The notes beneath the pieces were generated by a model, which worked only from the letters and a program-made list of their open reading frames with translations, ran no database searches and was not told the DNA's origin. 33,555 nucleotides of DNA, from positions 1 to 33,555 of the forward strand of contig JAQTMM010000015.1 of the NCBI GenBank assembly GCA_028714335.1. The letters run 5' to 3'. The translations under genes were made by a program, and so were the position numbers. This DNA comes from Dehalococcoidales bacterium. Its GTDB lineage: Bacteria; Chloroflexota; Dehalococcoidia; Dehalococcoidales; RBG-16-60-22. Of this stretch, positions 2,412 to 23,907 are shown piece after piece (within the stretch, counting starts at the first letter, position 1; each line of letters begins with the position of its first letter).

Positions 2412-2429
2412 CCTTCAAACTGAAATCAA

Positions 2430-2440
2430 TGTGGTATATC
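2430..2440 (+). promoter_or_regulatory. Promoter-like box upstream of copy 3
   Basis: TGTGGTATATC matches the TGTGGTAxAAT box of the other spacers except at the hexamer end. It lies 56 nt before the chosen start of copy 3. Confidence 0.35.
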
Positions 2441-2496
2441 AGTAACATTCTTGATATCATATAGGTAGCATGCTTTTTAAGAGGGAAGGACCGGCC

Positions 2497-4086: not shown

Positions 4087-4105
4087 TTGAAGAGATGTGT
4101 AAAAA
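4087..4105 (+). promoter_or_regulatory. Promoter-like box upstream of copy 4
   Basis: TTGAAG, then TGTGTAAAAA 3 nt later, a degenerate form of the box seen before copies 5 and 6. The hexamer ends exactly 41 nt before the start codon, as it does in front of copies 5 and 6. Confidence 0.35.
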
Positions 4106-4146
4106 CATATCACCGACTCGTTAGCAGCCGGCAAGGAGAATATTAA

Positions 4147-5754
4147 ATGAAAAAGCTTTTGTTTAACAAAGCGATTACCGCTTTTGTTGCCACACTGATA
4201 CTTTTAGCAATTACATTCATATTACCGTGTCTGCCGGCGCAAGCCGATGAATCCAGCCCCGAGGTATGGGGACTATTTGTCGGTGTATCTTATAAATTGT
4301 CAGCCCCTGAGGTTAAGTATGCCGATGACGACGCCCGCGCTTTATACGAGACACTTTCTCCAATCTGGGGCGCTGCTAACACCAAACTCCTGGTTGATAG
4401 CGAAGCGGACGAACAAGAGATACTGGATGGCGTTGCCTGGCTGGCTCAAAACGCCGACGCCGATGATACGGTAGTTTTTACTTTCTCCGGGCTTGGCACG
4501 GGAGTCGGTGCTATCTGTCCTGCCGACTTTAATCCGCTTGAGGGTGGCCTGACTACAGATCAACTAGCTAAAGCTTTTGAACCTGTTAAGGCGGGTAAAA
4601 TACTTATAATTCTGGATTGCAACTATGCTGCAAAGTTCCGTGTTAGTCTAACCAAGGAAGGCCGATTTTTAATGTTTTCCAGTCCTATGTACGGAGGGGC
4701 TAGAGAAAGCGATGAAATCCAACACGGCTATTTGTCCTACTTTGTCCTGCAGGCGCTTAATAGTCCCGACGTTTACGACGTCAATGAAAACTACGAACTT
4801 TCCGCCGAGGAAATTGCTTCCTATGCTACTGAAATGACGGCTAATACAACCAGCAACCTTCCGCCGGTAATTGTTGACCTGAATAGCGACGAATTCCCTT
4901 TACTCACGTACTTTACATATACTTCGAGTCTGGAGTTGCCTGCTGAAGCCACTATCCTGACGCTTGACGGCGTTGATTATAATGCGCCGCCGGAAATGCA
5001 GATTTGGGCCCCCGGTTCCACTCATACGATGACCGTGCCCGATGTTATTGATGTAGGCACCGGAACACGTTATTTATTCGTCAGGTGGGATGACGACAGT
5101 GTTTCAACTGCACGGATTATTTCTAAAGGCTCATACAGTGCCGGTTACAGGCTGGAATACCTGTTCGATATTTCCTCCGCATATGGAGTGGTCACCAGCG
5201 CCGGTTGGTACAGTCGCAATACCACTGTAGATTTCTCGGTCACTCCTTTTTTGGAAACGGCATATGCCAAGTTCTACTTTGAGGGCTGGAGTGGTGACTA
5301 TACCGGGACATTGTCCACAGGCTCGATACTTATGGACGGGCCAAAAACCGTTACCGCCGTTTGGCGTACCGTGTATCTGTTAGTGTTGGAATCTGACTAC
5401 GGCAATCCCAACGGCGCGGGCTGGTATAACGAGGGGGCGCCGGTCAACATCTCCATTGAGTCTGTCCATGGCTCATTAATCCGGCAGATTTTCATCGGCT
5501 GGAGCGGCGACTTTTATAGCCTGGACGCCAGCACGATGGTTAGAATGGATTCGTCTAAAGTAATCGTGGCTAACTGGATGGTGGATTACCTATGGCTGTA
5601 TGTCTTCATTCTTATCATAACTGTGGTGGTTGGTATATCTGTTTATTTACTCGTCCATTACAGGGTGTTCCGCCGCCTTTTCCCCCCACCCCGCCAACCG
5701 CGCAAGGTTAAGATAATGCCGCCCTCACCGCCCCCGTCACGCCGTAAGAGATAA
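4147..5754 (+). CDS. Pseudocaspase/InlB-repeat surface protein, copy 4
   Basis: 535 residues with a signal peptide (to about residue 33, LPAQA). The caspase-like fold aligns throughout with copies 2 and 3, but the catalytic His is Leu (SGLG, L116) and the catalytic Cys position is Asn (LDCNYAA, N159). A Cys sits one residue earlier (C158). It is therefore probably inactive as a protease. The EF-hand-like loop DVNENYELSAEE is kept. Three B-repeats and a transmembrane helix (YVFILIITVVVGISVYLLV) follow. The tail is proline-rich and basic (PPPRQPRKVK..., ending PPPSRRKR). The ribosome site AAGGAG is 7-8 nt before the ATG. The reading frame is intact, so it is a maintained pseudoenzyme rather than a pseudogene. 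Confidence 0.87.
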   Translation: MKKLLFNKAITAFVATLILLAITFILPCLPAQADESSPEVWGLFVGVSYKLSAPEVKYADDDARALYETLSPIWGAANTKLLVDSEADEQEILDGVAWLAQNADADDTVVFTFSGLGTGVGAICPADFNPLEGGLTTDQLAKAFEPVKAGKILIILDCNYAAKFRVSLTKEGRFLMFSSPMYGGARESDEIQHGYLSYFVLQALNSPDVYDVNENYELSAEEIASYATEMTANTTSNLPPVIVDLNSDEFPLLTYFTYTSSLELPAEATILTLDGVDYNAPPEMQIWAPGSTHTMTVPDVIDVGTGTRYLFVRWDDDSVSTARIISKGSYSAGYRLEYLFDISSAYGVVTSAGWYSRNTTVDFSVTPFLETAYAKFYFEGWSGDYTGTLSTGSILMDGPKTVTAVWRTVYLLVLESDYGNPNGAGWYNEGAPVNISIESVHGSLIRQIFIGWSGDFYSLDASTMVRMDSSKVIVANWMVDYLWLYVFILIITVVVGISVYLLVHYRVFRRLFPPPRQPRKVKIMPPSPPPSRRKR

Positions 5755-5774
5755 TTGAATCGGTGTGGTAAAAT
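5755..5774 (+). promoter_or_regulatory. Promoter-like box upstream of copy 5
   Basis: TTGAAT, three bases, then TGTGGTAAAAT. The hexamer TAAAAT (5769-5774) ends 41 nt before the start of copy 5. TTGxAx lies only 8 nt from the hexamer, too close for a normal -35, but the arrangement recurs before copies 4 and 6. Confidence 0.5.
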
Positions 5775-5815
5775 AAAGGTATCATTCCCAAGGCGATGGC
5801 TGGTGAGGAGGCTGT

Positions 5816-7219
5816 TTGATAGTCAGGCATTTCTTTAAAGTCATACTGATTTTTATATGCGCCATAACCGTACTGATTACAGCTAATTTTGCCTTGCCTG
5901 GCGCCACTACCCAGGCGGCCGATGCCACTGCCGAGTGCTGGGGAGTCTTTATCGGGATTTCCACTTTTCAGAACCTCGATGATGAAGTAAAGTATGCCGC
6001 TAGCGGCCAGCAGGAACTCTGTAACGATTTTAGCGCCGTTTGGGGCGCCGACCATGTTAGACTAGTAACTGATTCCGAGGCGACCAAGAGCGGCATCATG
6101 GAAGCCATAGCGTGGCTGGACGAGCGGGCAGACGGTAACGATACGGTGCTTTTTAGCGTTACCAGCACCGGCGTTGCAGGCCCGGGGCCGGATTACTATT
6201 TCTGGACTTATGATTCTTTGCCTGATTCCTGGGATAACGATATTTCAGCTGAAGAGCTCGATAGTGCCTTTGAAGTTATAGACGCCGCCGGAGCGGTCTT
6301 TATCCTCTCTTTTGCCCACGCGGGCGGCTTCCTTAACAACTTGAGCGGCAGCAACAGAGTCATTTTAGCGGGTTGTGAGGAGGATGAGTGGGGCTACTAC
6401 GACGATTCCTTGGAGAACCCGGTTTTTATTTACCACATAATTGAGGCGCTTGATAATTTTGGTGAAGTAGATGTGGATAATAACTACGCCGTCACCGCCG
6501 AAGAAATTTTTAACTACGCCGCCCCAGCTACCACCAGTTTTGATGAAAGCCACGGCTATTTGCCTGCCCAGCACCCCGTGCTTAACGACCATTTTGACGG
6601 CGAACTGCCTTTGATTGCTGAATTCGCGCTTTTCACCAATATCAACCTTCCTGCCGGTTCCGTTATTACCATTAGCGGCGCGGAATATGATATTCTGCCG
6701 GTTATATTTCTTACCGCGCCGGGCATTGCCTATACCGTTAAAGTGCCGGATGTAATCTATATTAGCAGCGATACCCGTTACGTGTTCAGTGACTGGGGTG
6801 ACGATGATGTTTCAACCACAAGGGCAATGCTATACGGCGTCCATACCGCCAACTTTAATAAAGAATACCTCCTGAAAATATACTCCACCTACGGCGAGGC
6901 TGCCGGGGACGGCTGGTATAAAGACGGGGAGGAAGTCAACGTTTTTGTGGTGGCGTACCAAGAGCTGATAATTAAACATGTTTTTAATGGCTGGACCGGC
7001 GATTTTACAGGTAAGGAAGCTAATATCACATTTACTATGAATTCGCCAAAAGTTATCACCGCTATGTGGAGCGTGGAATATCTCAATCTGTACATCCTGT
7101 TGGCTATATTGATTATCTTTATTGCCGGTATATTTTTGACTATTTTCCTGGTGATTATTCGTAGAGGTGCTAAAAAACATAAGGCTAAAAGAAAAAAGCC
7201 GCGTCGTTCTGCCAAATAG
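5816..7219 (+). CDS. Pseudocaspase/InlB-repeat surface protein, copy 5 (short form)
   Basis: 467 residues from a TTG start preceded by GAGGAGG (only 4 nt spacing); no better start gives the signal peptide (MIVRHFFKVILIFI...). The caspase-like fold has lost both catalytic residues: the His position is Thr (VTSTG, T118) and the Cys position is Ala (SFAHAG, A167). The EF-hand-like loop DVDNNYAVTAEE is kept. Only one well-formed B-repeat follows the degenerate first unit, where the other copies have two, which explains the shorter length. A transmembrane helix (LYILLAILIIFIAGIFLTIFLVI) leads to a strongly basic tail (KKHKAKRKKPRRSAK) without the poly-proline of copies 1, 3 and 6. Confidence 0.85.
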   Translation: MIVRHFFKVILIFICAITVLITANFALPGATTQAADATAECWGVFIGISTFQNLDDEVKYAASGQQELCNDFSAVWGADHVRLVTDSEATKSGIMEAIAWLDERADGNDTVLFSVTSTGVAGPGPDYYFWTYDSLPDSWDNDISAEELDSAFEVIDAAGAVFILSFAHAGGFLNNLSGSNRVILAGCEEDEWGYYDDSLENPVFIYHIIEALDNFGEVDVDNNYAVTAEEIFNYAAPATTSFDESHGYLPAQHPVLNDHFDGELPLIAEFALFTNINLPAGSVITISGAEYDILPVIFLTAPGIAYTVKVPDVIYISSDTRYVFSDWGDDDVSTTRAMLYGVHTANFNKEYLLKIYSTYGEAAGDGWYKDGEEVNVFVVAYQELIIKHVFNGWTGDFTGKEANITFTMNSPKVITAMWSVEYLNLYILLAILIIFIAGIFLTIFLVIIRRGAKKHKAKRKKPRRSAK

Positions 7220-7239
7220 TTGCATAAATGTGGTAAAAT
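7220..7239 (+). promoter_or_regulatory. Promoter-like box upstream of copy 6
   Basis: TTGCAT, three bases, then TGTGGTAAAAT. The hexamer (7234-7239) ends 41 nt before the ATG of copy 6, the same distance as for copies 4 and 5. Confidence 0.5.
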
Positions 7240-7280
7240 AACGCATTGATTACTGTTACGTTATAAAAGGAGAAAGTACA

Positions 7281-8933
7281 ATGAAAAAATTGTTTGGTAA
7301 AATATCTTTTCTAATACTGATGGTTCTACTTGCCACTACCTTCATTATGCCGTGTGCCGTTGCGCAGGCAGCCGCAGGCGACCCCGAATGCTGGGCAGTT
7401 ATTGTCGGCATTAATGAGAATCAAAGTGGTACGCGTAACTGGCATTTCGGTATTGAAGATGCCCAGGCTTTTAATGATGCCATCTCACCGACCTGGGGTT
7501 CCGACCACATCAGACTGCTGACAGGAACTGAGGCAACCAAGGCAGCTATCCTGCAGTCCGTCGGTTGGCTAGCTTCAAATGCAGGAGCCGATGATACTGT
7601 ATTATTCTATTTTTCTGGTTGGGATGATGATGTTCTTTATCCGTACGATTACAATGCGGCCGGTAGTGAGATAACAGCCGCGCAATTAGGTACCGCCTTC
7701 AATGCTGTTACCGCTCAAAAAGCCGTTTTTGTTTTTGGTGGTTGGGAAGCGAATGTTATGCGAAGCGCCCTGATGGCAAATGGACGAGTTATCATGTTTG
7801 CCGCTGAAGAAACCGGTGCAGTGTGGTATTCCAACACCAATCAATCCCATATCTTCAATAAATATATTACAGCTGCTCTCGATAACTTCAACGACGCTGA
7901 TGCTAACAGCGACTATCAATTGACCGCTGAAGAAATTTTCTACTACGCGGCGGATTTAACCACGCAGGACCATATTTCCCAGGTACCCGTAATGGTTGAT
8001 AATTACACGGGCGGCCTGGCAATAATGGCCAAGTTTATATTCGATACTAATATGATTCTGCCTGCCGGAGCAACAATCGTAACGATTGACGGCACCAACT
8101 ATACCTCGATACCGTCACCGTTCCTCTGGGTGCCGGGCGGCAACCATACTGTGACCGTGCCCGGTGAAATCAGCGGAGATACCGGAACACGCTACGTCTT
8201 TACCGGCTGGAATGGGGGCGCTACTGTGCCCACCCAGACCTTCTCTTACGGGCAACATACCGCTAACTTTGAAAAGCAATATCTACTCACGGTTAATTCC
8301 ACTTACGGGAATCCAACCGGCCAGGGGTGGTATACCGCCGGTTCTACCGCCAGTTTCTCCATCACTAACTACATTGAAACCTCCGACACCAAACGTTACT
8401 TCGGCGGCTGGAGCGGCGATGTTACCGGTTCTACCACCAGCGGCTCTCTAGTAATGAATGCCCCGAAAACGATTACCGCCAGCTGGGATTCCGAATATCT
8501 CCTGACGATAAACTCGGAGTACGGCACGCCTACCGGTGCCGGCTGGTATAACGCCGGACAAACTGCCAACGTTGCTGTTGCCGAATCCGAAGGTTTCATG
8601 ATCAAGAATGTCTTCGATGGCTGGACCGGCGACCTGAATACCGCTACCGCCAGCACCAGCATCGTTATGAACGGCCCCAAGGTTATCACCGCTACCTGGC
8701 ACTCCGACTACATGATGCTGATTATTATCATCGTGGTTGTGGTGGTTGTCATCGGTGTGGTAATCACCCTCGTGCTTATCCGCCGCAAGGGCGGTACCCC
8801 GGGCGTTCCTCCTACTGCTATGGCGCCTGCCGGTACTCCTCCGATGGGTTCAGCACCGCCGGCTTCAACACCGCCTCCGGCAGCAGGCCCACCTCCGGTG
8901 CCTCCACCTCCGCCTCCTCCACCGGCCGCGTAG
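7281..8933 (+). CDS. Pseudocaspase/InlB-repeat surface protein, copy 6
   Basis: 550 residues with ribosome site AAGGAGAAAG before the ATG. The signal peptide ends around VAQAAA. In the caspase-like fold the His position is Trp (FSGWDDD, W114) and the Cys position is Trp (FGGWEAN, W155), so no protease activity is expected. The EF-hand-like loop DANSDYQLTAEE remains. Three B-repeats, a very hydrophobic helix (IIIIVVVVVVIGVV), RRK and a long Pro/Ala tail ending in eight prolines and AA follow. The repeats and tail resemble copy 1 more than the neighbouring copies. Its role is unknown; a decoy, scaffold or calcium-responsive adhesion role would fit. Confidence 0.87.
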   Translation: MKKLFGKISFLILMVLLATTFIMPCAVAQAAAGDPECWAVIVGINENQSGTRNWHFGIEDAQAFNDAISPTWGSDHIRLLTGTEATKAAILQSVGWLASNAGADDTVLFYFSGWDDDVLYPYDYNAAGSEITAAQLGTAFNAVTAQKAVFVFGGWEANVMRSALMANGRVIMFAAEETGAVWYSNTNQSHIFNKYITAALDNFNDADANSDYQLTAEEIFYYAADLTTQDHISQVPVMVDNYTGGLAIMAKFIFDTNMILPAGATIVTIDGTNYTSIPSPFLWVPGGNHTVTVPGEISGDTGTRYVFTGWNGGATVPTQTFSYGQHTANFEKQYLLTVNSTYGNPTGQGWYTAGSTASFSITNYIETSDTKRYFGGWSGDVTGSTTSGSLVMNAPKTITASWDSEYLLTINSEYGTPTGAGWYNAGQTANVAVAESEGFMIKNVFDGWTGDLNTATASTSIVMNGPKVITATWHSDYMMLIIIIVVVVVVIGVVITLVLIRRKGGTPGVPPTAMAPAGTPPMGSAPPASTPPPAAGPPPVPPPPPPPPAA

Positions 8934-13701: not shown

Positions 13702-13974
13702 TTATCCGCCGTGAATCACGTATAAAAGACTAAACTTATCGCCATTTTTTAACGGTTGGTTCATATCCTTGGGGTAAACGCTTTGCCCGTTGATAAAGTA
13801 GTCGTAAGTACGCGCCAGATTGCCGTTCTTGTCCAGCAATAAACGTTTTAGCTTGGGGAAGCGTTCTACCAGAGCGTGCAGACATTCGCGGACGGTTTTG
13901 CCCTCAACATCAACACTTAGAGTGTCATTGGTATATAACCCGAAAAACGAGGACATCTCGATATTTACACTCAT
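13702..13974 (-). CDS. MoaD/ThiS-like ubiquitin-fold sulfur carrier
   Basis: 90 residues ending in the diagnostic Gly-Gly (VIHGG) needed for adenylation and thiocarboxylate formation. The ubiquitin-like pattern includes EGKTVRECLHALVERFP and a C-terminal LKNGDKFSLLYVIHGG. Its start overlaps the stop of the MoeB-like gene by 4 nt (ATGA), so the two are translationally coupled, which supports an E1/carrier pair. Given the fdhD and MOSC genes in the same run, molybdopterin synthesis is likelier than thiamine synthesis, but a role in another thio-transfer pathway is possible. Confidence 0.85.
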   Translation of the reverse strand: MSVNIEMSSFFGLYTNDTLSVDVEGKTVRECLHALVERFPKLKRLLLDKNGNLARTYDYFINGQSVYPKDMNQPLKNGDKFSLLYVIHGG

Positions 13975-14714
13975 CGTTTCCTCTTGTCGCCGCAGACTTC
14001 ACAGTAGGGGTCGCGGTTGACTCTAAATTCGTTGAATTTCATTTGCAGGCCGTCGTAGGTCAGCAGCCGGTTCGTTAACAATTCACCTTGTCCTGTAATA
14101 CATTTTATCACCTCGGTTGCCTGGATGCAGCCGATAATCCCCGGCGTTACCCCGATGACGGGGAATTTTTCCGCAGGCATTTTAATCCCATGGAATAGGC
14201 AATTAAGGCAGGCGCTCTTGCCCGGTAAAACTGTCAGCGCTCTCCCCTCAAAGCCGTATACCGCCCCGTGAAACAAGGGTAATTTTTTCTCTACCGCCGC
14301 TCTGTTCAGTATATAACGGGTGGGCAGGTTATCCATGGCGTCCACAATAACGTCTGAGTCTCCGACTAATTTTAAGACATTTTTATCGTCTATCGTCTCA
14401 CTGGTGGTTTCTATCTTGGTATTGGGATTGAACTCGTGTAGTTTTTCCGCCGCCGACTTCACCTTGTTTTTACCGATGTCCGCTTGCCACTGCAGTATCT
14501 GCCGGTTGAGGTTGCTTAATTCCACTTTATCGTGGTCGGTGATGCGCAGTGTACCGATGCCGGCCACCGCCAGATAAATTGCCACCGGCGAACCTAACCC
14601 CCCCGCCCCGGCCAGGAAGACCTTAGCCTTCTTGAGCTTTTCCTGCCCCGCCTTCCCGAATCCGTGCAGGATTATCTGGCGGGTATATCTCTCCTGCTCT
14701 TCTTTAGTAAGCAT
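13971..14714 (-). CDS. MoeB/ThiF/HesA-type E1-like adenylyltransferase
   Basis: 247 residues. It activates the C-terminal glycine of a ubiquitin-like sulfur carrier with ATP. Signatures: N-terminal RYTRQIILHGFG, nucleotide motif GAGGLGSP, NLNRQIL, DAMDNLPTR, and the zinc cysteines in CLNC and CEVC. There is no C-terminal rhodanese domain. A conserved Cys thioester site is not obvious to me. It ends overlapping the moaD-like start, giving the obvious partner. It follows nadA by 11 nt, so it belongs to the same transcript. Confidence 0.9.
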   Translation of the reverse strand: MLTKEEQERYTRQIILHGFGKAGQEKLKKAKVFLAGAGGLGSPVAIYLAVAGIGTLRITDHDKVELSNLNRQILQWQADIGKNKVKSAAEKLHEFNPNTKIETTSETIDDKNVLKLVGDSDVIVDAMDNLPTRYILNRAAVEKKLPLFHGAVYGFEGRALTVLPGKSACLNCLFHGIKMPAEKFPVIGVTPGIIGCIQATEVIKCITGQGELLTNRLLTYDGLQMKFNEFRVNRDPYCEVCGDKRKR

Positions 14715-14725
14715 GTTATTTCTCT

Positions 14726-15631
14726 TTACACAATCTCCAGCATGCGGTCCACGGCCGCTTTGGCTCTGATGCGGATTTCTTCCGGTACTCTAACTACCGG
14801 CATCATCATTTCCAGCGACTGCAGGACTTTTTCCAGCGTGATGCGCTTCATGTTGGGGCATACCGCCTTGAGCGAAGCCGGGTAGAACTGCTTGCCCGGA
14901 TTTTCTTTCTTTAAACGGTGCAATATCTCTACCTCCGTCCCGACGATTAGTTCTTGAACGTCCGGCCGGGCGGCGTAGCGGATAATACCGCTGGTGCTCA
15001 GGGCTTCATCCGCCAGTTTAATGACTTCCGGAGTGCATTCCGGATGCACCACCACTTTTGCCTTGGGGTGTTCCATCCTTTTTTGTTTAATATCCTCTGC
15101 CTTAATATTGGCGTGGGTAGGGCAGTAGCCGGGCCAGAGTTCCATCTTCTTGCCGGTCTTTTTCATAATATAGTCGCCGAGGTATTGGTCTGGCACAAAG
15201 AGGATTTTATCGTTCTTGACGGCATTGACTACCTTAACGCCGTTCGCTGATGTGCAGCAGTAGTCGGATTCCGCTTTGACGGCGGCAGTGGAATTGACGT
15301 AAGTGACGACCGTATAACCGGGCAGTTCCTGCTTTTTCTTGCGCAGCTGTTCGGAGTTAATCATGTCCGCCATCGGACAGCCGGAAGCAGCATCGGGCAG
15401 CAGGATGGTTTTTTGAGGATTCAATATCGAGGCTGTTTCCGCCATGAAGTGTACGCCGCAAAAGACGATAACCTCGGCATCAACGGCAACGGCTTTCTGG
15501 CTTAGCTCCAGCGAGTCCCCTACAAAGTCCCCGATATCCTGCACCTCACCGCGCTGGTAGTTGTGGACTAAAATTACTGCGTTCTTTTCTTTTTTTAACG
15601 CCTGGATTCGTTCTACCGTATTATCTGCCAT
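14726..15631 (-). CDS. nadA: Quinolinate synthase
   Basis: 301 residues. NadA condenses iminoaspartate and dihydroxyacetone phosphate to quinolinate for NAD synthesis, using an oxygen-sensitive [4Fe-4S] cluster. The family motifs are clear: AVILVHNYQRGEVQDIGDFVGDSL, FCGVHFMAETASIL, CPMADMI, CPTHANI, HPECTPEV and CPNMKRITLEKV; the three cluster cysteines fall in the expected places. Length fits the short NadA type. nadB and nadC are not nearby, so the gene sits in a sulfur/molybdenum operon instead; FeS demand is the possible link. A TAAAAT lies 6 nt before the ATG, but without a -35 I do not claim a promoter. Confidence 0.95.
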   Translation of the reverse strand: MADNTVERIQALKKEKNAVILVHNYQRGEVQDIGDFVGDSLELSQKAVAVDAEVIVFCGVHFMAETASILNPQKTILLPDAASGCPMADMINSEQLRKKKQELPGYTVVTYVNSTAAVKAESDYCCTSANGVKVVNAVKNDKILFVPDQYLGDYIMKKTGKKMELWPGYCPTHANIKAEDIKQKRMEHPKAKVVVHPECTPEVIKLADEALSTSGIIRYAARPDVQELIVGTEVEILHRLKKENPGKQFYPASLKAVCPNMKRITLEKVLQSLEMMMPVVRVPEEIRIRAKAAVDRMLEIV

Positions 15632-15658: not shown

Positions 15659-16489
15659 TTAAGCACTGCGTACCCTCTCGGCGCCGCAGTAAATCTTCAT
15701 GCTGTTCTTTTTGGGCGTCCTTGCAGACGCGTCGGTGATAGCCTTTGAACCTATCGTCCGTACGAACCCGGCGATGGTTAAGCCGCACTTCTTAGCCGTC
15801 TCCAGACCTTTATTGGTGACGGCCGTTCTCGTAGCGACAACCGGGATGCCGCTGCGGCAGATTTTTGTCACCATCTCCGAAGCCATACGCCCCGTGGATA
15901 CTAAAAACAGGCGGCTGCAGTCTATTTTATGCAGTAATGTATAGCCGATTATTTTATCCAGCGTGTTGTGCCGCCCAATGTCTTCCACGATGCAGACGGG
16001 GCTGGCTCTGGTATTAAAAAGGCCGGTGGCATGGACGCCTTCGGTCTCGGAGTAGAGCAGGGCGTTTTTAAAGAGCTGATTCATCGCCGAAAAGAGCGTG
16101 CGTTTGCTAATGACTAAGTCAGACTTTATTTCACTCAAATCGGCTTCCGGGAAATATATTGACTTGCCGCCGCCGGAAACAATGCGGTAATTGGTTTTAG
16201 CAGCGTCTGTGAGAGTCTTGCGCCGGTCTTTAAGGGTTACATGCGCTGTGTTATTCAATATTTCCAACGATGCTACTTCTTCCAGGCTGTTGATGATTCC
16301 CTGCCCGAAGAGGTAGCCCATAGCGAATTCCTTGAGAAGGTTGGGGGTAATGGACGGAATGACCAGCTGTTTGCCGTTGACGAAAATGGGGAACTCCTGC
16401 TCGATGGCGACGTCCGCCTTGAACGGAGCCGCCCGCCCAGCGCTGTATTGCCAGCCGCTTAATTTCCTCGATGATTTAACGCTTGCCAT
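15659..16489 (-). CDS. fdhD: FdhD-like sulfurtransferase, copy 1
   Basis: 276 residues. FdhD moves sulfur from a cysteine desulfurase to the Mo/W cofactor of formate dehydrogenase. Family motifs present: PVCIVEDIGRHNTLDKIIGY, STGRMASEMV, and VVATRTAVTNKGLETAKKCG. In the loop where E. coli FdhD carries its CxxC (Cys121/Cys124), this protein reads IVSGGGKSIYF, without cysteine. Either another residue serves, or the protein delivers cofactor without carrying persulfide. It begins 1 nt after the stop of the second fdhD-like gene; the two are paralogues in tandem, and this one is longer. Confidence 0.88.
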   Translation of the reverse strand: MASVKSSRKLSGWQYSAGRAAPFKADVAIEQEFPIFVNGKQLVIPSITPNLLKEFAMGYLFGQGIINSLEEVASLEILNNTAHVTLKDRRKTLTDAAKTNYRIVSGGGKSIYFPEADLSEIKSDLVISKRTLFSAMNQLFKNALLYSETEGVHATGLFNTRASPVCIVEDIGRHNTLDKIIGYTLLHKIDCSRLFLVSTGRMASEMVTKICRSGIPVVATRTAVTNKGLETAKKCGLTIAGFVRTIGSKAITDASARTPKKNSMKIYCGAERVRSA

Positions 16490-16490
16490 T

Positions 16491-17192
16491 TTATGCGATT
16501 TTCTCCGGGTGAGTAAACACCACCATATCTTTACCCCGCACCAGCCCGATTAAAGTAATACCGGCTTTCTCGGCGGTTTCTATTGCCAGCGTCGTCGGCA
16601 CGCTCCTGGTGGCGATAACCGGGATGTTAACGTTGCGGCACTTGACTATCATCTCCGATGGCTGTTTGCCGGTGACGGTAACAATGGTATTGGTAAAATC
16701 AACGTTATGCAGCAGACCGTAGCCGATGGCTTTATCTAAAGCGTTATGGCGCCCCAGATCCTCCGCGATGCACACCGGTTCGCTGCCATTAATAAATAAG
16801 CCGGCGCAATGCACGGCTTCGGTTTCGGAAAACAGGTCGGATTTGTTTACAGCTCGAACACAATTTATAATGTCGTTCTGTTTAACTTTAAATTTGCTGC
16901 TGACCTTACGGCCAACACGCTGTTTCTTATACGTGTCGATTAATGCAACCTCGGCGACGTAGTTCCTGATGGTTAGAGAGCGGATTTCCCGGGCGCTTTT
17001 GATGACTCCCTGCGTCAGCAGGTGCCCTAAAACGAATTCCCTTTCCATCACCGCCAATATCATCGCGGTGGTGTAATGCTTGCCGCCGATGCGGATGGAC
17101 AACGCGGTTTCTTTTATGATTCTTTCTGCGGCTTTTCTGCCGCCGCCGTCCACCCGCGTGTATTCGATTTGTTCCAGGATTTTACTTTCCAT
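16491..17192 (-). CDS. FdhD-like protein, copy 2 (shorter)
   Basis: 233 residues. The FdhD core is evident: ETEAVHCAGLF, PVCIAEDLGRHNALDKAIGYGLL, VTGKQPSEMIVK and VIATRSVPTTLAIETAEKAG. The region that should hold the CxxC loop is shortened (VGRKVSSKFKVKQND) and has no cysteine. It is more divergent than copy 1. Its start lies inside the end of the MOSC gene (11 nt overlap), implying coupled translation. MOSC domains and FdhD both handle sulfur and molybdenum cofactor, so the three probably act together on a formate dehydrogenase or related molybdoenzyme encoded elsewhere. A subfunction or heteromeric partner role relative to copy 1 is possible. Confidence 0.82.
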   Translation of the reverse strand: MESKILEQIEYTRVDGGGRKAAERIIKETALSIRIGGKHYTTAMILAVMEREFVLGHLLTQGVIKSAREIRSLTIRNYVAEVALIDTYKKQRVGRKVSSKFKVKQNDIINCVRAVNKSDLFSETEAVHCAGLFINGSEPVCIAEDLGRHNALDKAIGYGLLHNVDFTNTIVTVTGKQPSEMIVKCRNVNIPVIATRSVPTTLAIETAEKAGITLIGLVRGKDMVVFTHPEKIA

Positions 17193-17637
17193 GTTCTACT
17201 TCGGTTACTAGAATAGCATCTCCGGCCCTTATCTTACCACCTTGAATAACTTTTGCAAAAACACCTTCCCGCGGCATCACGCAATCGCCTACCTGCTGGC
17301 GGATGGCGCAGGCGGCGTGACATTCTTTGCCTATCTGGGTTATCTCCAATAATACATCCTTGCCGGCTTTAAGTCTTGCCCCGACCGGCAGCGCCGCCAG
17401 GCCGATACCTTCAGTAGTGATGTTTTCCGCAAAGTCGCCCGGCTTAAGAAAATCAAAACCCTTGCTGCGCATTTTATCAATACTTTCCATCGCAAGCAAG
17501 CTTACCTGCCGGTGAGTCGTGCCATCAGCATGAGCATCACCCACCACACCGTGGTTTTCTTTAAGGATTATTTCTTCAACAGCCTTTTTACTGATGCCCT
17601 TTTTTTCGCTAAGGCATACCGCGATTATTTTAGCCAT
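17182..17637 (-). CDS. MOSC-domain protein
   Basis: 151 residues, a stand-alone MOSC (molybdenum cofactor sulfurase C-terminal) domain. Visible features: GVVGDAHADGTTHRQVSLL near the N-terminus, GDFAENITTEGI, LPVGARLKAGKDVLLEITQIGKECH and the Cys-containing stretch ending DCVMPREGVFAKV. MOSC proteins bind Mo cofactor and are thought to carry sulfur on a conserved Cys. The length and pattern match the small MOSC group found beside moaC/mogA or fdhD genes. It follows mnmA by 3 nt and overlaps fdhD-like 2. Confidence 0.9.
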   Translation of the reverse strand: MAKIIAVCLSEKKGISKKAVEEIILKENHGVVGDAHADGTTHRQVSLLAMESIDKMRSKGFDFLKPGDFAENITTEGIGLAALPVGARLKAGKDVLLEITQIGKECHAACAIRQQVGDCVMPREGVFAKVIQGGKIRAGDAILVTEVEHGK

Positions 17638-17640
17638 GAT

Positions 17641-18687
17641 TTATTCTCCTTGCCTGACTATTCTGCCGCCCCCGATGACCCTATCTCCCTGATAAAACAC
17701 TGCCGTCTGGCCCGGCGTAACCGCCATCTGAGGTCTAGTAAACTTCACAAAAACGGCATCTTCGTTGATGGCGTTTACCGTTGACGGCGCTGTCGGGTGG
17801 TGGTGTCGGATTCTGGTTTTCGCTTTAAACGGTTTTTCTGGAACGGGTTCTATTAGCCAGTTCATATTGTCGGCGGCAAGTTCACTGGAGTAGGTTTGCG
17901 TTTTAGTACCAACGATGATGGCATTTTTCTCTGGTTTAATGGCAATAACGTAAAGCGGTTCGGCGGCGGCAATGCCCAAGCCCTTGCGCTGGCCGACGGT
18001 ATAAAACATGATGCCCTGGTGTTCCCCCATTTTTTTGCCGCTGCTATCTAAAATGGGGCCGGTCTCTATCTTGCCCTTATAATATTCTTTTAAAAATTGA
18101 ACGTGGTCATTGTCCTTAATGAAGCATATTTCCTGACTTTCATCGCGTTCTGCGGCGGGCAGCCCCATTTCTTTAGCTATTTTTTTTACCTGGATTTTGG
18201 TCAGGCCGCCGATGGGAAACAAGGTATGCTTTAGTTGTTCGGGCGTCAGCCGGCAGAGGAAATATGACTGGTCTTTGTCTCTATCCTTTCCCTTTTTTAG
18301 TAAGTAGCTGCCGTCTTTGGATTTTTCTATTCTGGCATAATGCCCCGTCGCTAAAAATTCCGCACCCAGCCCCTTAGCCTTTTCCCACAGCACGCCGAAC
18401 TTAATATGCCGGTTGCACAGGACGCAGGGATTCGGCGTGTAGCCCAAGCTGTATTCCCGGCAAAAATCGGCGATGATAGTACGCTTGAATATGTCTTGCA
18501 GGTCGATAACGTGGTGGGGTATCTTTAGCTTTTCGGTAACCTTACGCGCGTCATCAATGGCGCTTTGGCTGGCGGGGATATCGGTCAGCTTCATCGTTAC
18601 GCCGATGATATTGTGACCTTGTTGTTTGAGTAAGGCGGCGGCTACCGAGGAATCAACGCCGCCGCTCATGGCTACGGCTATTTTCAT
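17641..18687 (-). CDS. mnmA: tRNA-specific 2-thiouridylase
   Basis: 348 residues. MnmA thiolates U34 of tRNA Lys, Glu and Gln with ATP and a persulfide from a desulfurase. The PP-loop SGGVDSSVAAALL is at residues 9-21. The catalytic cysteines are in NPCVLCN and SQEICFI, and GEHQGIMFYTVGQRKGLGI and the C-terminal AVFYQGDRVIGGGRI are typical. The start is clear (MKIAVAMSGGVDSS). It lies 9 nt after cysE and 3 nt before the MOSC gene, so cysteine synthesis, tRNA thiolation and cofactor sulfuration are transcribed together. No iscS is within the window. Confidence 0.96.
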   Translation of the reverse strand: MKIAVAMSGGVDSSVAAALLKQQGHNIIGVTMKLTDIPASQSAIDDARKVTEKLKIPHHVIDLQDIFKRTIIADFCREYSLGYTPNPCVLCNRHIKFGVLWEKAKGLGAEFLATGHYARIEKSKDGSYLLKKGKDRDKDQSYFLCRLTPEQLKHTLFPIGGLTKIQVKKIAKEMGLPAAERDESQEICFIKDNDHVQFLKEYYKGKIETGPILDSSGKKMGEHQGIMFYTVGQRKGLGIAAAEPLYVIAIKPEKNAIIVGTKTQTYSSELAADNMNWLIEPVPEKPFKAKTRIRHHHPTAPSTVNAINEDAVFVKFTRPQMAVTPGQTAVFYQGDRVIGGGRIVRQGE

Positions 18688-18696
18688 TGATTGCCT

Positions 18697-19407
18697 CTAT
18701 TTAGATTTTGCCGCCCTGGAACTGCCGCCCGTTTTCTTTTTATTGGGTTTTTCCGGCGCATCGGAGATGCCGTTTAGACGTTCCAGCTTTTTAAGGCGCT
18801 CGTTAAGTTTCTGGTGGTCTCGAATCATCAGCTTAAGCACCTCGGCAACCGGGTCGGGCAGTTGGCCGTGCTCAAGGTCGGCGGCCGGTTTTTCGCGCTT
18901 GGTGACGACCCTGGCGGGAACGCCCACCACCGTCACGCCCGGCGGCACCGGCTTTATCACCACCGACCCCGCCCCGATTCTTACATCGTCCCCAACGGTT
19001 ATGGCACCCATGACGAATGCCCCGGCGCCTATTTCCACGCAATTCCCGATGGTCGGATGGCGTTTTTCTTTCTTGGTTGAGGTCCCGATTAGTCCACAGC
19101 CCTGGTACATCAGGACGTCGTCGCCGATTTCCGAAGTTTCACCAATGACGATACCCGTGCCGTGGTCAATAAAGCACCGCCGCCCGATTTTTGCCCCGGG
19201 GTGAATCTCGACACCTGTCAGCATCCTCGCTAAATTAGAACAGTAACGCGCCAGCCATTTTAAATGATGCGTCCAGAAAAAGTGATTGATACGGTGTGCC
19301 CAGATGGCGTGGAGGCCATTATAGCAAAAGATGATTTCCAGCGAACTTCTGGCCGCCGGGTCTTTGGCGAATACTGTTTTAATGTCTTCCCGTATGGTCT
19401 TGAACAC
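18697..19407 (-). CDS. cysE: Serine O-acetyltransferase
   Basis: 236 residues, the short EpsC/CysE form. It acetylates L-serine from acetyl-CoA, the first step of cysteine synthesis. The left-handed beta-helix hexapeptides run from GVEIHPGAKIGRRCFIDHGTGIVIGET onwards, with the catalytic His in FIDHGTG and IGNCVEIGAGAFVMGAITVG after it. The start is GTG with AAGGT upstream. The C-terminal 50 residues (from PAADLEHGQLPDP) are charged and probably coiled coil. No cysK is adjacent. First gene of the minus-strand sulfur/molybdenum run. Confidence 0.93.
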   Translation of the reverse strand: MFKTIREDIKTVFAKDPAARSSLEIIFCYNGLHAIWAHRINHFFWTHHLKWLARYCSNLARMLTGVEIHPGAKIGRRCFIDHGTGIVIGETSEIGDDVLMYQGCGLIGTSTKKEKRHPTIGNCVEIGAGAFVMGAITVGDDVRIGAGSVVIKPVPPGVTVVGVPARVVTKREKPAADLEHGQLPDPVAEVLKLMIRDHQKLNERLKKLERLNGISDAPEKPNKKKTGGSSRAAKSK

Positions 19408-19477: not shown

Positions 19478-19506
19478 TTGAAGTACGCCCGTTTATTGTG
19501 TAGAAT
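19478..19506 (+). promoter_or_regulatory. selA promoter, apparently leaderless
   Basis: TTGAAG (19478-19483), 17 nt, TAGAAT (19501-19506) in the context TTGTGTAGAAT. The selA ATG is only 7 nt after the -10, so transcription would start at or next to the start codon. Confidence 0.55.
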
Positions 19507-19513
19507 TAAGCCG

Positions 19514-20854
19514 ATGGCTAAAGAATTACGAAGCTTGCCCGGTGTTAATAAAGTACTGACGGACGAACGCTTTAGTCGCATGGCTAAAGAGTACTCGCAC
19601 GACCTGGCGGTTAGCGTTATCCGGGAGGAATTAGAGCGGCAAAGGGAGTCCATTCAGGCAGGCAAGTCCGGCGATTTTTTAGACGTAATTGTAGATAACG
19701 CGCTGGAACGTTTAGCCGCTATTTTCACACCGAGCCTGCGCCGTGTTATCAATGCCTCCGGCGTTATTTTGCATACCAATCTCGGCCGCGCGCCTTTAAG
19801 CGACGATGCCCTTAAAGCGATGGCGGTTGCCGGCTACTCCAACCTTGAGTTTGATTTAGACAGCGGCAGTCGGGGGCAACGTCACGTCCATGTAGAAGAC
19901 CTGCTGTGCCGGTTGACCGGCGCCGAAGCCGCATTTGTCGTCAACAACAACGCCTCCGGCGTGATGCTGGGGCTGTCCGCTCTAGCCAAGCGTAAGGAGG
20001 TTATCGTCTCACGCGGGCAGGCGGTGGAAATAGGGGGAGGCTTCAGGGTGCCCGATGTCATGCGTCAGAGCGGCGCTAAACTTATTGAGGTGGGGACGAC
20101 CAACCGCACCTACTCCCGCGATTATGAAGAAGCCATTACGCCGTCCACCTGCGCTTTAATGCGCGTCCACTCCAGCAACTTTAAGCTGGTGGGCTTTACC
20201 AGCGAGGTCGCATTAGAAGAACTGGCGGCTATTGCCAAAAAGCATAACCTGATGCTGCTGGATGACCTCGGCAGCGGCAGTTTATTGAATACTACAGCTT
20301 TCGGCCTCGCTGCCGAACCGATGGTTCAGCAAAGCGTTAAAGCCGGGGCGTCGTTAACCTTCTTTTCCGGCGATAAGCTTTTAGGCGGCCCGCAGGCGGG
20401 CATCATCGTTGGAGAAAAGCAGTATATTGATAAACTAAAACGCCATCCCCTTGCCCGCGCCTTGCGCATAGATAAAACGCGGCTGACGGGACTGGCAGTG
20501 ACGTTAATGCATTATCTTAAGGACGAAGCTGTTGCCAAAATCCCCATCTGGCGCATGATTGCCGCGCCGCTTAAGGACATCGAAAAACGCGCCGGTATTT
20601 GGGCTAAAGCCTGCGGCGCCAAAGTCATTGACGGGGAGACGATGGTCGGCGGCGGCTCTTTACCCGGCGGCAGTTTGCCCACTAAACTGGTGGTATTGCC
20701 GGGCGGCAGCGCTTTAGCGAAAAAACTCCGATTACAAACGATGCCGGTCATCGGGCGGGTGGAAAAAGACCATTTGCTTTTAGACCCCCGCACCGTCCTC
20801 CCGGAAGAAGATGATATCGTTATCAAAGCTCTTACCAGCCTTGCTGTAAAATAA
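19514..20854 (+). CDS. selA: L-seryl-tRNA(Sec) selenium transferase
   Basis: 446 residues. SelA converts seryl-tRNA(Sec) to selenocysteyl-tRNA(Sec) with selenophosphate, using PLP. The PLP lysine is in FFSGDKLLGGPQAG (K288). RRVINASGVILHTNLGRAPLS and VEDLLCRLTGAEAAFVVNNNASG are family signatures. The ORF track starts at a TTG (19478) that is part of the -35; the ATG at 19514 gives the normal N-terminus (MAKELRSLPGVNKVL). No ribosome site is seen, in line with a leaderless message. selB follows two genes on the same strand and tRNA-Sec lies 6 kb away. selD is not in the window. Confidence 0.96.
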   Translation: MAKELRSLPGVNKVLTDERFSRMAKEYSHDLAVSVIREELERQRESIQAGKSGDFLDVIVDNALERLAAIFTPSLRRVINASGVILHTNLGRAPLSDDALKAMAVAGYSNLEFDLDSGSRGQRHVHVEDLLCRLTGAEAAFVVNNNASGVMLGLSALAKRKEVIVSRGQAVEIGGGFRVPDVMRQSGAKLIEVGTTNRTYSRDYEEAITPSTCALMRVHSSNFKLVGFTSEVALEELAAIAKKHNLMLLDDLGSGSLLNTTAFGLAAEPMVQQSVKAGASLTFFSGDKLLGGPQAGIIVGEKQYIDKLKRHPLARALRIDKTRLTGLAVTLMHYLKDEAVAKIPIWRMIAAPLKDIEKRAGIWAKACGAKVIDGETMVGGGSLPGGSLPTKLVVLPGGSALAKKLRLQTMPVIGRVEKDHLLLDPRTVLPEEDDIVIKALTSLAVK

Positions 20855-20874: not shown

Positions 20875-22050
20875 ATGAGTGCTAAAGAAATCGTCCTACG
20901 CTATGGTTTTAATCCCCACCAGAAACCCGCCCGTATTTTCGTTAAAAGCGGCGACTTGCCGTTTAAAGTCGTAAACGGCGCACCGGGCTACATCAATATG
21001 CTGGACGCCTTGAACTCATGGCAGCTGGTTAAAGAGTTGAAGCAAGCCCTCAACCTGCCGGCGGCCGCCTCTTTTAAACACGTCAGCCCGGCTGGAACGG
21101 CGGTAGGCATACCGCTGACCGATACGCTTAAGAGGGCGTACTTTGTGGATGATATGGAAGAATCGCCGGTGATGGCAGCTTACGCCCGGGCGCGCGGCGC
21201 CGACCGAGTTTCTTCCTACGGCGACTTCGTGGCGGTGAGTGATACTGTTGACGGCCCGACAGCGAAACTGATTGTGCGCGAGGTCTGCGACGGCATGATT
21301 GCCCCGGGCTATGAAAAGGGCGCTTTAGAGATACTTAAAGCCAAGAAAAACGGCAAGTTCCTGTTAATTGAGGTTGACCCCGATTATGAGCCGGATGAGA
21401 CGGAAACCCGCGAGGTCTTCGGGATTCAAATGGAACAAATGCGGAATAATGCTGTAGCCACACCCGACCTCCTGAAAGATGTGGTTACACGAAAGAAAGA
21501 CTTCCCGCCGGACGCTGTCCGTGACCTGATTATTGCCACGGCGGCAATAAAGTACACCCAGAGCAACACCATCGGTTTTGCCGTGGACGGGCAGGCTATC
21601 GGCATCGGGGCGGGGCAGCAATCGCGCATTCACTGCACGCGGTTAGCGGCGGAAAAAGCCGACCGCTGGTACTTAAGACAGCATCCCACTATCCTTGACA
21701 TAAAGTTTAAGCCGGGGGTATCAAGAGCGGACAAAAACAACGCCATTGACCTGTATTTACAGGAACGATTGAACAAATTTGAAAGAGAGACGATGGAAGC
21801 GGCGATGGTGGACGTGCCGCCGCAGCTGACCTACGACCAGAAACGAGACTGGCTGAAAGGACTCAAGGGCGTATCGCTTTCGTCCGACGGCATGATACCC
21901 TTCCGCGACACCATCGACCGTGCTTACGAAAGCGGCGTGGAATACGTGCTGCAGCCCGGCGGCTCCATCCGCGACGAAGGCGTTATCAAAGCCTGCGACG
22001 ACTACGGCATGGTGATGGCCTTTTCCAACCTCCGCCTTTTCCACCATTAA
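20875..22050 (+). CDS. Stand-alone AICAR transformylase (PurH C-terminal domain)
   Basis: 391 residues corresponding only to the AICAR formyltransferase part of PurH; the IMP cyclohydrolase domain is absent. The enzyme formylates AICAR with 10-formyl-tetrahydrofolate in purine synthesis. Present: YGFNPHQKPA, catalytic Lys-His in FKHVSPAGTAVG, GDFVAVSD, the IKYTQSNTIGFA and GIGAGQQSRIHCTRLA motifs, and the C-terminal RLFHH. The ribosome site ACAGGAG is 7 nt before the ATG. It starts 20 nt after selA and ends 6 nt before selB, so it is in the same transcript. A separate IMP cyclohydrolase must be encoded elsewhere if the pathway is complete. Formate supply to 10-formyl-THF could link it to the formate dehydrogenase theme. 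Confidence 0.9.
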   Translation: MSAKEIVLRYGFNPHQKPARIFVKSGDLPFKVVNGAPGYINMLDALNSWQLVKELKQALNLPAAASFKHVSPAGTAVGIPLTDTLKRAYFVDDMEESPVMAAYARARGADRVSSYGDFVAVSDTVDGPTAKLIVREVCDGMIAPGYEKGALEILKAKKNGKFLLIEVDPDYEPDETETREVFGIQMEQMRNNAVATPDLLKDVVTRKKDFPPDAVRDLIIATAAIKYTQSNTIGFAVDGQAIGIGAGQQSRIHCTRLAAEKADRWYLRQHPTILDIKFKPGVSRADKNNAIDLYLQERLNKFERETMEAAMVDVPPQLTYDQKRDWLKGLKGVSLSSDGMIPFRDTIDRAYESGVEYVLQPGGSIRDEGVIKACDDYGMVMAFSNLRLFHH

Positions 22051-22056
22051 AGAAAA

Positions 22057-23907
22057 ATGTTTGTTTTAGGCACAGCCGGACATATCGACCACGGCAAGTC
22101 GGTGCTGGTGCAGGCTCTGACCGGCATGGACCCCGACCGCTTGCGGGAGGAAAAGGAGCGGGGCATGACCATCGACCTGGGTTTTGCCTGGCTCAAGTTC
22201 CCCAGCGGCAGGGAAGCGGGCATCGTTGACGTGCCGGGCCACGAACGCTTTGTGAAGAATATGCTGGCGGGCGTCGGCGGTATAGACCTCGCTTTGGTGG
22301 TAGTTGCCGCCAACGAGGGCATTATGCCCCAGACACGCGAACACCTCGCCATCTTAGACCTTATCGGCGTCAAGCGCGGCGTAGTGGCTGTCACCAAGAA
22401 AGACCTCGTGGACGATGATATGCTCGCCCTCGTTAAGATGGAAGTGGAGGAGCTCATCGCCACCACCACCCTCGCCGGGTCGCCCGTCGTTGCCGTTTCT
22501 TCGGTAACTAAAGAGGGCGTCCCCGAGCTTTTACAAATCCTCGATGCTCAACTGGAAAAAACCGAGACAAAGAAGGATACCGGCCACCCACGCCTCCCCA
22601 TCGACAGGATATTTACGATTGCCGGCGCCGGTACGGTGGTCACCGGCACGCTGATTGACGGCGCTTTGACCGTGGGGCAGGAGGTGGAAATCGTCCCTGC
22701 CGGTCTTAAATCGCGAATACGCGCCCTGCAGACGCATAAGGCGAAGATGGATACAGCTACGCCGGGCAGCCGCGTGGCGGCGAACCTGGTGGGCATTGAG
22801 ACCGCCCAGCTTACCCGCGGCGACGTTGTAACCCGCCCCGGCTGGTTGACCAGCACGAAATTGATTACGGTGCGTCTTAAGCTGATTGACTACCTGAAGC
22901 GCGGTATCAAACACGGCGCTGAAGTCAGTTTTCATACCCTGGCGGCGGAGGCAATGGCTAAGGTGCGCCTTTTGGAGAGTGAAACCCTCCAGCCCGGCGC
23001 GGAAACCTGGGCGCAATTGATGTTAGAGACGCCACTGGCTATCGTTAACGGCGACCGCTTTATCATCCGCTCCCCGATGGAAACGCTGGGGGGTGGGGAA
23101 ATTATAGACGCCCACGCCCGGCGACTCCGACGCTTTAAGCCGGACGTTATTAAGAATCTAAAGGTTAAAGAAAGCGGCGCCGCCGATGAGGTTATCCTGG
23201 CGCTTTTGGAGACGAAACAGCCGCTGGAATATAGCGCTTTAACCGCCCAGGCTAATATCCCTCCCGCCGAACTCGCCCCCGCATTAGAATCACTGGTAAA
23301 AGAGAAACGCGTGGTGGTTTTAGGGGAGGGGGAACACCGGCTGTTTTTCACGGCGGGTGGCTGGAAGAACTTGAGCGATAAAGCCCTTGGCGCTTTAGCC
23401 GAATATCATAAAAAGTACCCCGCCCGTCCCGGCATGCCCCGCGCCGAGTTCGCCACGCGCTTAAGGCTGGGTAATTTCGTGAATATGGCGCTGGAGGCTT
23501 TAACCAGGCAGGGAGCATTAGTCGCCGAGGGGGTTACCCTCCGCCTCCCCAGTCACGAGGTTAAACTCACCACCGCCCAGCAGGGTAAAATCGACGCTTT
23601 TCTTAAAGCGTTGGCCGCCGAGCCTTATGCCCCACCATCCGACCTTATCCCCGAACCCGACCTGCTCAACATCCTCATCGCGCAGGGCAAGGTCGTTAAG
23701 GTCAGCGACGCCATCGTCTTTTCCACCAAAGCCTACGACGAGATGAAGTCCAAAATCACCGCGCAGCTTAAGAAAAATGGTAAAATAACGCTGGGCGAGG
23801 TGCGGGATATGTTCGGGTCGAGCCGCAAATACGTCCAGGCTTTGCTGGAGCACCTCGATAGGGAAAAAGTGACCAAGCGCGTTGGGGACGACCGCGTTCT
23901 TTATTAG
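22057..23907 (+). CDS. selB: Selenocysteine-specific elongation factor
   Basis: 616 residues. SelB is the EF-Tu-like GTPase that brings Sec-tRNA(Sec) to UGA codons marked by a SECIS hairpin. GTPase motifs: GTAGHIDHGKS (G1, residues 5-15), the G2 region REEKERGMTIDLGFAW, DVPGHERF (G3) and TKKD (G4). The C-terminal third has winged-helix segments ending in KKNGKITLGEVRDMFGSSRKYVQALLEHLDREKVTKR, the mRNA-binding type. The ATG has little ribosome site and lies 6 nt after the AICAR transformylase stop, suggesting coupled translation. Confidence 0.96.
   Translation: MFVLGTAGHIDHGKSVLVQALTGMDPDRLREEKERGMTIDLGFAWLKFPSGREAGIVDVPGHERFVKNMLAGVGGIDLALVVVAANEGIMPQTREHLAILDLIGVKRGVVAVTKKDLVDDDMLALVKMEVEELIATTTLAGSPVVAVSSVTKEGVPELLQILDAQLEKTETKKDTGHPRLPIDRIFTIAGAGTVVTGTLIDGALTVGQEVEIVPAGLKSRIRALQTHKAKMDTATPGSRVAANLVGIETAQLTRGDVVTRPGWLTSTKLITVRLKLIDYLKRGIKHGAEVSFHTLAAEAMAKVRLLESETLQPGAETWAQLMLETPLAIVNGDRFIIRSPMETLGGGEIIDAHARRLRRFKPDVIKNLKVKESGAADEVILALLETKQPLEYSALTAQANIPPAELAPALESLVKEKRVVVLGEGEHRLFFTAGGWKNLSDKALGALAEYHKKYPARPGMPRAEFATRLRLGNFVNMALEALTRQGALVAEGVTLRLPSHEVKLTTAQQGKIDAFLKALAAEPYAPPSDLIPEPDLLNILIAQGKVVKVSDAIVFSTKAYDEMKSKITAQLKKNGKITLGEVRDMFGSSRKYVQALLEHLDREKVTKRVGDDRVLY

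Follow-up and report, generated by a model that had tools for sequence, protein, structure and literature searches.

The window, by which we mean the whole stretch of 33,555 nucleotides analysed here, comes from the draft genome of a Dehalococcoidales bacterium (G000; 1.74 Mb, 105 contigs, 88.8% complete), the relatives of which are recorded as Dehalococcoidales or Dehalococcoidia MAGs. Two adjacent genes on its reverse strand encode FdhD-like proteins, called FdhD-1 and FdhD-2 in the following, and their surroundings are composed as listed below.

13702..13974, reverse strand: MoaD/ThiS-like small sulfur carrier (PF02597, 27 bits; NCBIfam SAMP1/moaD_arch below cut-off)
13971..14714, reverse strand: ThiF/MoeB-type adenylyltransferase (PF00899, 253 bits)
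14726..15631, reverse strand: NadA quinolinate synthase, downstream of FdhD-1 (PF02445, 419 bits)
15659..16489, reverse strand: FdhD-1 (W1), 276 aa (PF02634, 202 bits; SGGGK loop; model matches 4PDE and 2PW9)
16491..17192, reverse strand: FdhD-2 (W2), 233 aa (PF02634, 192 bits; loop deletion; model with fold match)
17182..17637, reverse strand: MOSC-domain protein, a neighbour that overlaps the start of FdhD-2 (PF03473, 45 bits; orthologue comparison)
17641..18687, reverse strand: MnmA-like tRNA 2-thiouridylase in the operon-like run (named from its translation; conserved neighbour)
18697..19407, reverse strand: CysE-like serine acetyltransferase, first gene of the run (named from its translation; conserved neighbour)
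19478..20854, forward strand: SelA selenocysteine synthase, divergent neighbour (TIGR00474, 550 bits)
22057..23907, forward strand: SelB-like elongation factor (translation and synteny; kept with selA in relatives)

The genes on the reverse strand form an operon-like run in the order cysE-mnmA-MOSC-FdhD-2-FdhD-1-nadA-moeB/thiF-moaD with gaps of −11 to +27 bp, in which FdhD-1 and FdhD-2 are separated by 1 bp and the MOSC gene overlaps FdhD-2 by 11 bp. Judging from this overlap and from gaps of no more than 27 bp, it is plausible that the run from cysE to moaD is read as a single transcript. Running in the opposite direction are selA, a PurH-like gene and selB, and the position of SelA beside the run is relevant to the selenocysteine formate dehydrogenase that G000 encodes. 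The PurH-like (AICARFT/IMPCHase) protein (391 aa, window 20875-22050, forward strand) is located between selA and selB also in most relatives examined.

By profile and predicted fold FdhD-1 and FdhD-2 are genuine FdhD-family proteins. The cut-off of the PF02634 (FdhD/NarQ) profile is 27.2 bits, and with TIGR00129 they reach 168 (FdhD-1) and 150 bits (FdhD-2) at a cut-off of 140.9; the identity between the two is 38%. Their AlphaFold models have the FdhD fold (pLDDT 85.3 and pTM 0.85 for FdhD-1, pLDDT 92.8 and pTM 0.89 for FdhD-2), and the best Foldseek matches of both are the solved FdhD structures 4PDE and 2PW9, with a TM of 0.76–0.89 to E. coli FdhD (4PDE). As stated in an earlier sequence-only reading of this DNA, the DIGRHN/DLGRHN motif is retained, namely as EDIGRHN in FdhD-1 and EDLGRHN in FdhD-2, and the core motif (EDxGRHx..DK, GR.xSE) is invariant in both copies and their orthologues barring single substitutions. 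Both copies have E30, H153, EDxGRH..DK..G, TGR.xSE..K, Y267 and R272 (FdhD-1 numbering) in common with canonical FdhD, and FdhD-1 shows an insertion of 16–17 aa ahead of the C-terminal strand. For both genes dN/dS is about 0.1–0.3, indicating purifying selection and ruling out pseudogene decay of the pair.

What is absent from both proteins is the loop cysteine. Cysteine-type FdhDs sampled from the class carry the loop (I/T)TSGCG or a near variant of it, with the cysteine present in 26/26, and at the column of this cysteine all 15 FdhD-1 orthologues have a glycine (SGGG), while the loop is deleted in all 13 FdhD-2 orthologues. These counts bear out the sequence-only reading in that neither copy has a loop cysteine and that copy 1 has an SGGGKS loop, with SGGG where the class has TSGCG. 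Its wording ‘without the CxxC loop’ holds for the absence but not for the choice of reference, as a single loop cysteine (SGCG) is the norm in the class and the position of E. coli Cys124 is absent even from ordinary FdhDs of the class. Similarly, the ‘short basic loop’ it saw in FdhD-2 is indeed free of cysteine, but its basic stretch is unconserved among orthologues and corresponds to the deletion. The alignment, which for solved FdhDs rests on PDB sequences (4PDE, 2PW9), places no other conserved cysteine at the loop position, and invariant cysteines are found elsewhere in both proteins. Neither copy has a cysteine in a mobile loop, the feature of an E. coli-type sulfurtransferase. In the FdhD-1 model, residues 95–108 and 113–115 including the SGGG tract are of low confidence and predicted to be disordered, which agrees with the disordered loop in solved FdhD structures (PMC10609526). 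A misaligned loop could be ruled out as no more than one gap is needed to align R-I-x-S-G-[CG]-G, and a selenocysteine (in-frame TGA) in the FdhDs as neither ORF is interrupted and a glycine codon or a deletion is found at the loop position.

Elsewhere in the class the loop cysteine is replaced by glycine or the loop altered (L042, L053, L057, L061, L062, L149, L150) or the loop is deleted (L044, L063, L151), so this cysteine is often lost and its absence alone is not special. The family is already known to include FdhDs without loop cysteine (PMC6239281, PMC10609526). Formate dehydrogenase (FDH) activity persists when both loop cysteines of E. coli FdhD are replaced, and the loop cysteines of Rhodobacter capsulatus FdsC are not needed for active FDH (PMC6239281); for FdhDs devoid of the cysteines a different sulfuration route has been proposed in a review (PMC10609526).

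An order-wide search of 156 genomes and inspection of the loci show FdhD-2 followed by FdhD-1 in an identical position in ten members of the window's family f1, from four genera (G000, G376, G377, G380, G362, G368, G369, G370, G371 and G383; loci L102–L110 and L112), with the genes at contig ends in G369 and G380, and two genomes of the same genus (G378, G379) have one loop-less FdhD at the place of the pair. When about 85,000 species genomes were scanned, the pair also came up in five whose records carry the label Deltaproteobacteria or that of a member group (L176–L179, L188), namely AB_03_Bin_182, Syntrophus sp. PtaB.Bin001, Desulfobacteraceae BH30, strain NaphS2 and MASpbin.1. The label is that of the record itself, and because it is also borne by L180, which in our genome set belongs to Dehalococcoidales, we take only Syntrophus, BH30 and NaphS2 as firmly outside Chloroflexota; the spread given here is a lower bound. 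In the five labelled genomes the neighbours of the pair are unrelated to those in the window's family. Of the 13 measured pairs, 11 have FdhD-2 and FdhD-1 spaced by −4 to +4 bp, with a 4 bp overlap of the ATGA type in 4/5 pairs of the labelled genomes, and no genome with FdhD-1 alone or FdhD-2 alone was seen except at contig ends. The two genes make up a conserved module, in which FdhD takes a paired form and both copies lack the loop cysteine. In family f11 (L146, L147, L148) the order mnmA-MOSC-fdhD-nadA is present with a cysteine-containing FdhD, which suggests that the pair sits in the slot of a canonical fdhD.

In the phylogenetic tree FdhD-1 (n = 15; 99/99) and FdhD-2 (n = 13; 100/97) each form one clade and both clades include the same non-Chloroflexota lineages, from which it follows that the duplication is older than the transfer. 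The loop-bearing FdhD-1 branches from within loop-less lineages, which requires repeated independent losses or an exchange of the loop tract, and a sister relationship of FdhD-1 and FdhD-2 excluding the single-copy genes is weakly rejected (AU p 0.036). Loop-less relatives occurring as single genes without partner were found as well (L045, L083–L089, L118, L119), and the single genes of G378, G379 and of genomes from families f10 and f110 belong to the same clade as the pair.

No FdhD-family gene besides the pair was found in the G000 draft. The pair is also the sole FdhD found in nine of the ten pair-bearing f1 genomes, the exception being G370 with an additional TSGCG-type FdhD, and in four of the five labelled carriers including NaphS2, a status that is provisional as most of these genomes are incomplete MAGs. 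Each of the ten f1 carriers has a match to the FDH alpha subunit, in six of them with an in-frame TGA, and all four sole-pair genomes outside f1 have a TGA-containing FDH. The TGA is located at the active-site motif HCARL-U-H in 7/7 loci checked (G000 and six from the four sole-pair genomes outside f1), and G000 encodes a selenocysteine formate dehydrogenase; in Syntrophus PtaB.Bin001, which has the pair and a canonical FdhD, there was no FDH match above the cut-off. FDH is the most economical client of the pair, though the drafts are incomplete. Across the order, the presence of FdhD is associated with that of any FDH (chi-square p 1.6e-4, uncorrected for kinship), and FdhD is not significantly more frequent with a TGA-containing FDH (38/51) than with other FDH (39/66; Fisher p 0.12). 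In many FDH-bearing genomes of the order no FdhD was detected, among them 13 of the 51 with an in-frame-TGA formate dehydrogenase, including G068 (99% complete, one contig).

A different kind of client is raised by the single-copy relatives. In five genomes of f10 and f110 (L045, L114, L116, L117, L120) the single loop-less FdhD of the pair's clade is located head-to-head with a PaaX-like regulator and the operon of a BamB-like tungsten enzyme, and the AOR-family protein of this operon is closest to benzoyl-CoA reductase (BCR) BamB (PDB 4Z3W, 1166 bits). TSGCG/ASGCG-type FdhDs of other lineages are likewise found beside or between BamB-like operon genes (L139, L140 and L141 in G324, G394 and G395), in G395 between bamD-like and bamE-like genes, and an FdhD inside the Bam cluster of ORM2a has been described (PMC13101534). 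For the whole clade, the possibility that FdhD serves certain AOR-family enzymes has to be taken seriously as a rival. For the pair itself we regard another Mo/W enzyme, e.g. an AOR-family tungsten enzyme such as BCR, as an unlikely client in place of FDH: G000 does have several AOR-family genes, but no close BamB was found in it, class II BCR carries W-bis-MPT and not bis-MGD (PMC12096430), and FDH accompanies the pair in all f1 carriers with the pair nearly always as their only FdhD.

Concerning the route of sulfur, the sequence-only reading had suggested that a cysteine of the MOSC protein may carry the sulfur and that the FdhD pair merely binds the cofactor. The MOSC gene does overlap FdhD-2 and has conserved cysteines (GKECHxxCAI...GxCIMP), but these are identical in L146–L148, where the MOSC gene adjoins TSGCG FdhDs. 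Moreover, MOSC could not be detected in every carrier of the pair (none in the G371 draft, 81% complete), nor in G379 with its related single FdhD, and no MOSC gene adjoins the pair in the five labelled Deltaproteobacteria genomes. These observations speak against MOSC as a compensating sulfur carrier and leave such a relay highly improbable. Better candidates than MOSC are C166 and C235 of FdhD-1 (each invariant in 15/15) and C111 and C185 of FdhD-2 (each in 13/13), which are present in 0/26 of the cysteine-type FdhDs of the class. C235 has a cysteine counterpart in the 4PDE sequence and C185 in the 2PW9 sequence, so these two may be structural; more distinctive are C166, three residues ahead of EDIGRHN, and C111, in the helix following the deleted loop, and sulfur might be carried by C166/C111. 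It could also be that the pair is a pure insertion chaperone for bis-MGD with sulfuration taking place outside it, either by direct action of a cysteine desulfurase or through free sulfide, which we hold to be a serious possibility though not a probable one and which differs from the explanation preferred below, with which it overlaps, in the sulfur step only. The lack of a loop cysteine in both copies would fit, as would the cysteine-independence of E. coli FdhD and FdsC (PMC6239281), the alternative route of the review (PMC10609526) and two strong matches to the aminotransferase class V / cysteine desulfurase family in G000, but the invariant cysteines outside the loop of both proteins leave room for a transfer by the pair itself.

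The explanation we prefer, and consider probable, is that FdhD-1 and FdhD-2 are obligate paralogues which jointly do the job of a single canonical FdhD: most likely as a heterodimer with the known FdhD fold, they would bind bis-MGD and hand the sulfurated cofactor to formate dehydrogenase, here a selenocysteine enzyme, without a loop cysteine. The sulfur would reach the cofactor directly from a cysteine desulfurase or via lineage-specific cysteines outside the loop. Heterodimerisation, FDH as client and the sulfur route are what we infer from the patterns described above. The suggestion of a possible heterodimer in the sequence-only reading gains strong circumstantial support from the fixed and mostly coupled gene order, its occurrence in two phyla and in unrelated neighbourhoods and the lack of solo copies other than at contig ends; such conserved pairing is the trace expected of an obligate two-protein complex and no proof of one. 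The same observations, together with the tight spacing and the ancient separation of the copies, speak against two separate homodimers that serve different clients or steps and are adjacent only through tandem duplication. This arrangement would be in line with the partnerless loop-less relatives and with the full set of core residues in each copy, and we judge it improbable. Single-gene relatives in the same clade (G378, G379, f10, f110) indicate that one chain can suffice and count against an obligate pair. A more detailed version, in which an obligate heterodimer with diverged halves of the cofactor site (SGGG loop and lost loop) passes sulfur via C166 and C111 close to that site, was transferred between phyla as one block and has replaced canonical FdhD in organisms with selenocysteine FDH, is conceivable but rather doubtful.

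Compared to known systems, the pair resembles E. coli FdhD (PDB 4PDE) in the PF02634 profile, the predicted fold, the nucleotide-site motif EDxGRH and the TGR/SGR-type motif, but the E. coli protein is a homodimer encoded by one gene with the CxxC (Cys121/Cys124) on a disordered loop, whereas here two genes have an SGGG loop and a deleted loop. The closest solved sequence to both copies, FdhD from Desulfotalea psychrophila (PDB 2PW9), keeps a single loop cysteine (TSGCG) that both copies lack. Cys-less ‘group III’ FdhDs, e.g. from Methanococcus maripaludis, also have no loop cysteine and keep the nucleotide-binding motif, but are described as single genes, and a diverged paralogue pair is not described in these two papers (PMC6239281, PMC10609526). 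R. capsulatus FdsC still has its unneeded loop cysteines and is, unlike the pair, a single gene (PMC6239281). The FdhD of the ORM2a Bam cluster (PMC13101534) belongs to the same family and resembles the f10/f110 single FdhDs in its position near bamB-like genes, whereas the pair is not in a Bam cluster. In targeted literature searches covering mostly openly available papers, we found no description of a conserved paired two-gene FdhD, which is not proof of absence. How sulfur is delivered to the FDH cofactor without an FdhD loop cysteine is an open question (PMC6239281, PMC10609526), and as apparently the sole FdhD in organisms with selenocysteine FDH, NaphS2 included, the pair offers a clean natural test between a sulfurtransferase and a mere cofactor carrier as well as specific cysteines to test.

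A divergent FdhD-like group (PF02634; L046–L052, L054–L056) also has no Cys loop and shows EDxSRHCA instead of EDxGRHNA and CRQT instead of GRxSSE; it is sometimes present in genomes also having a canonical FdhD. Elsewhere in the window (849-8933, forward strand) five complete tandem paralogues are located, and a partial sixth lies at 39-791. The complete copies begin with a caspase-like region, recognised by Pfam C14 in the first three, and further have Flg_new_2/InlB-type repeats and a membrane-like segment at the C-terminus. The catalytic dyad of His-Gly and Cys is kept in the first two paralogues, with one or both lost in the other three, and the relatives L103 and L118 have one such caspase-like gene in the stretch read.
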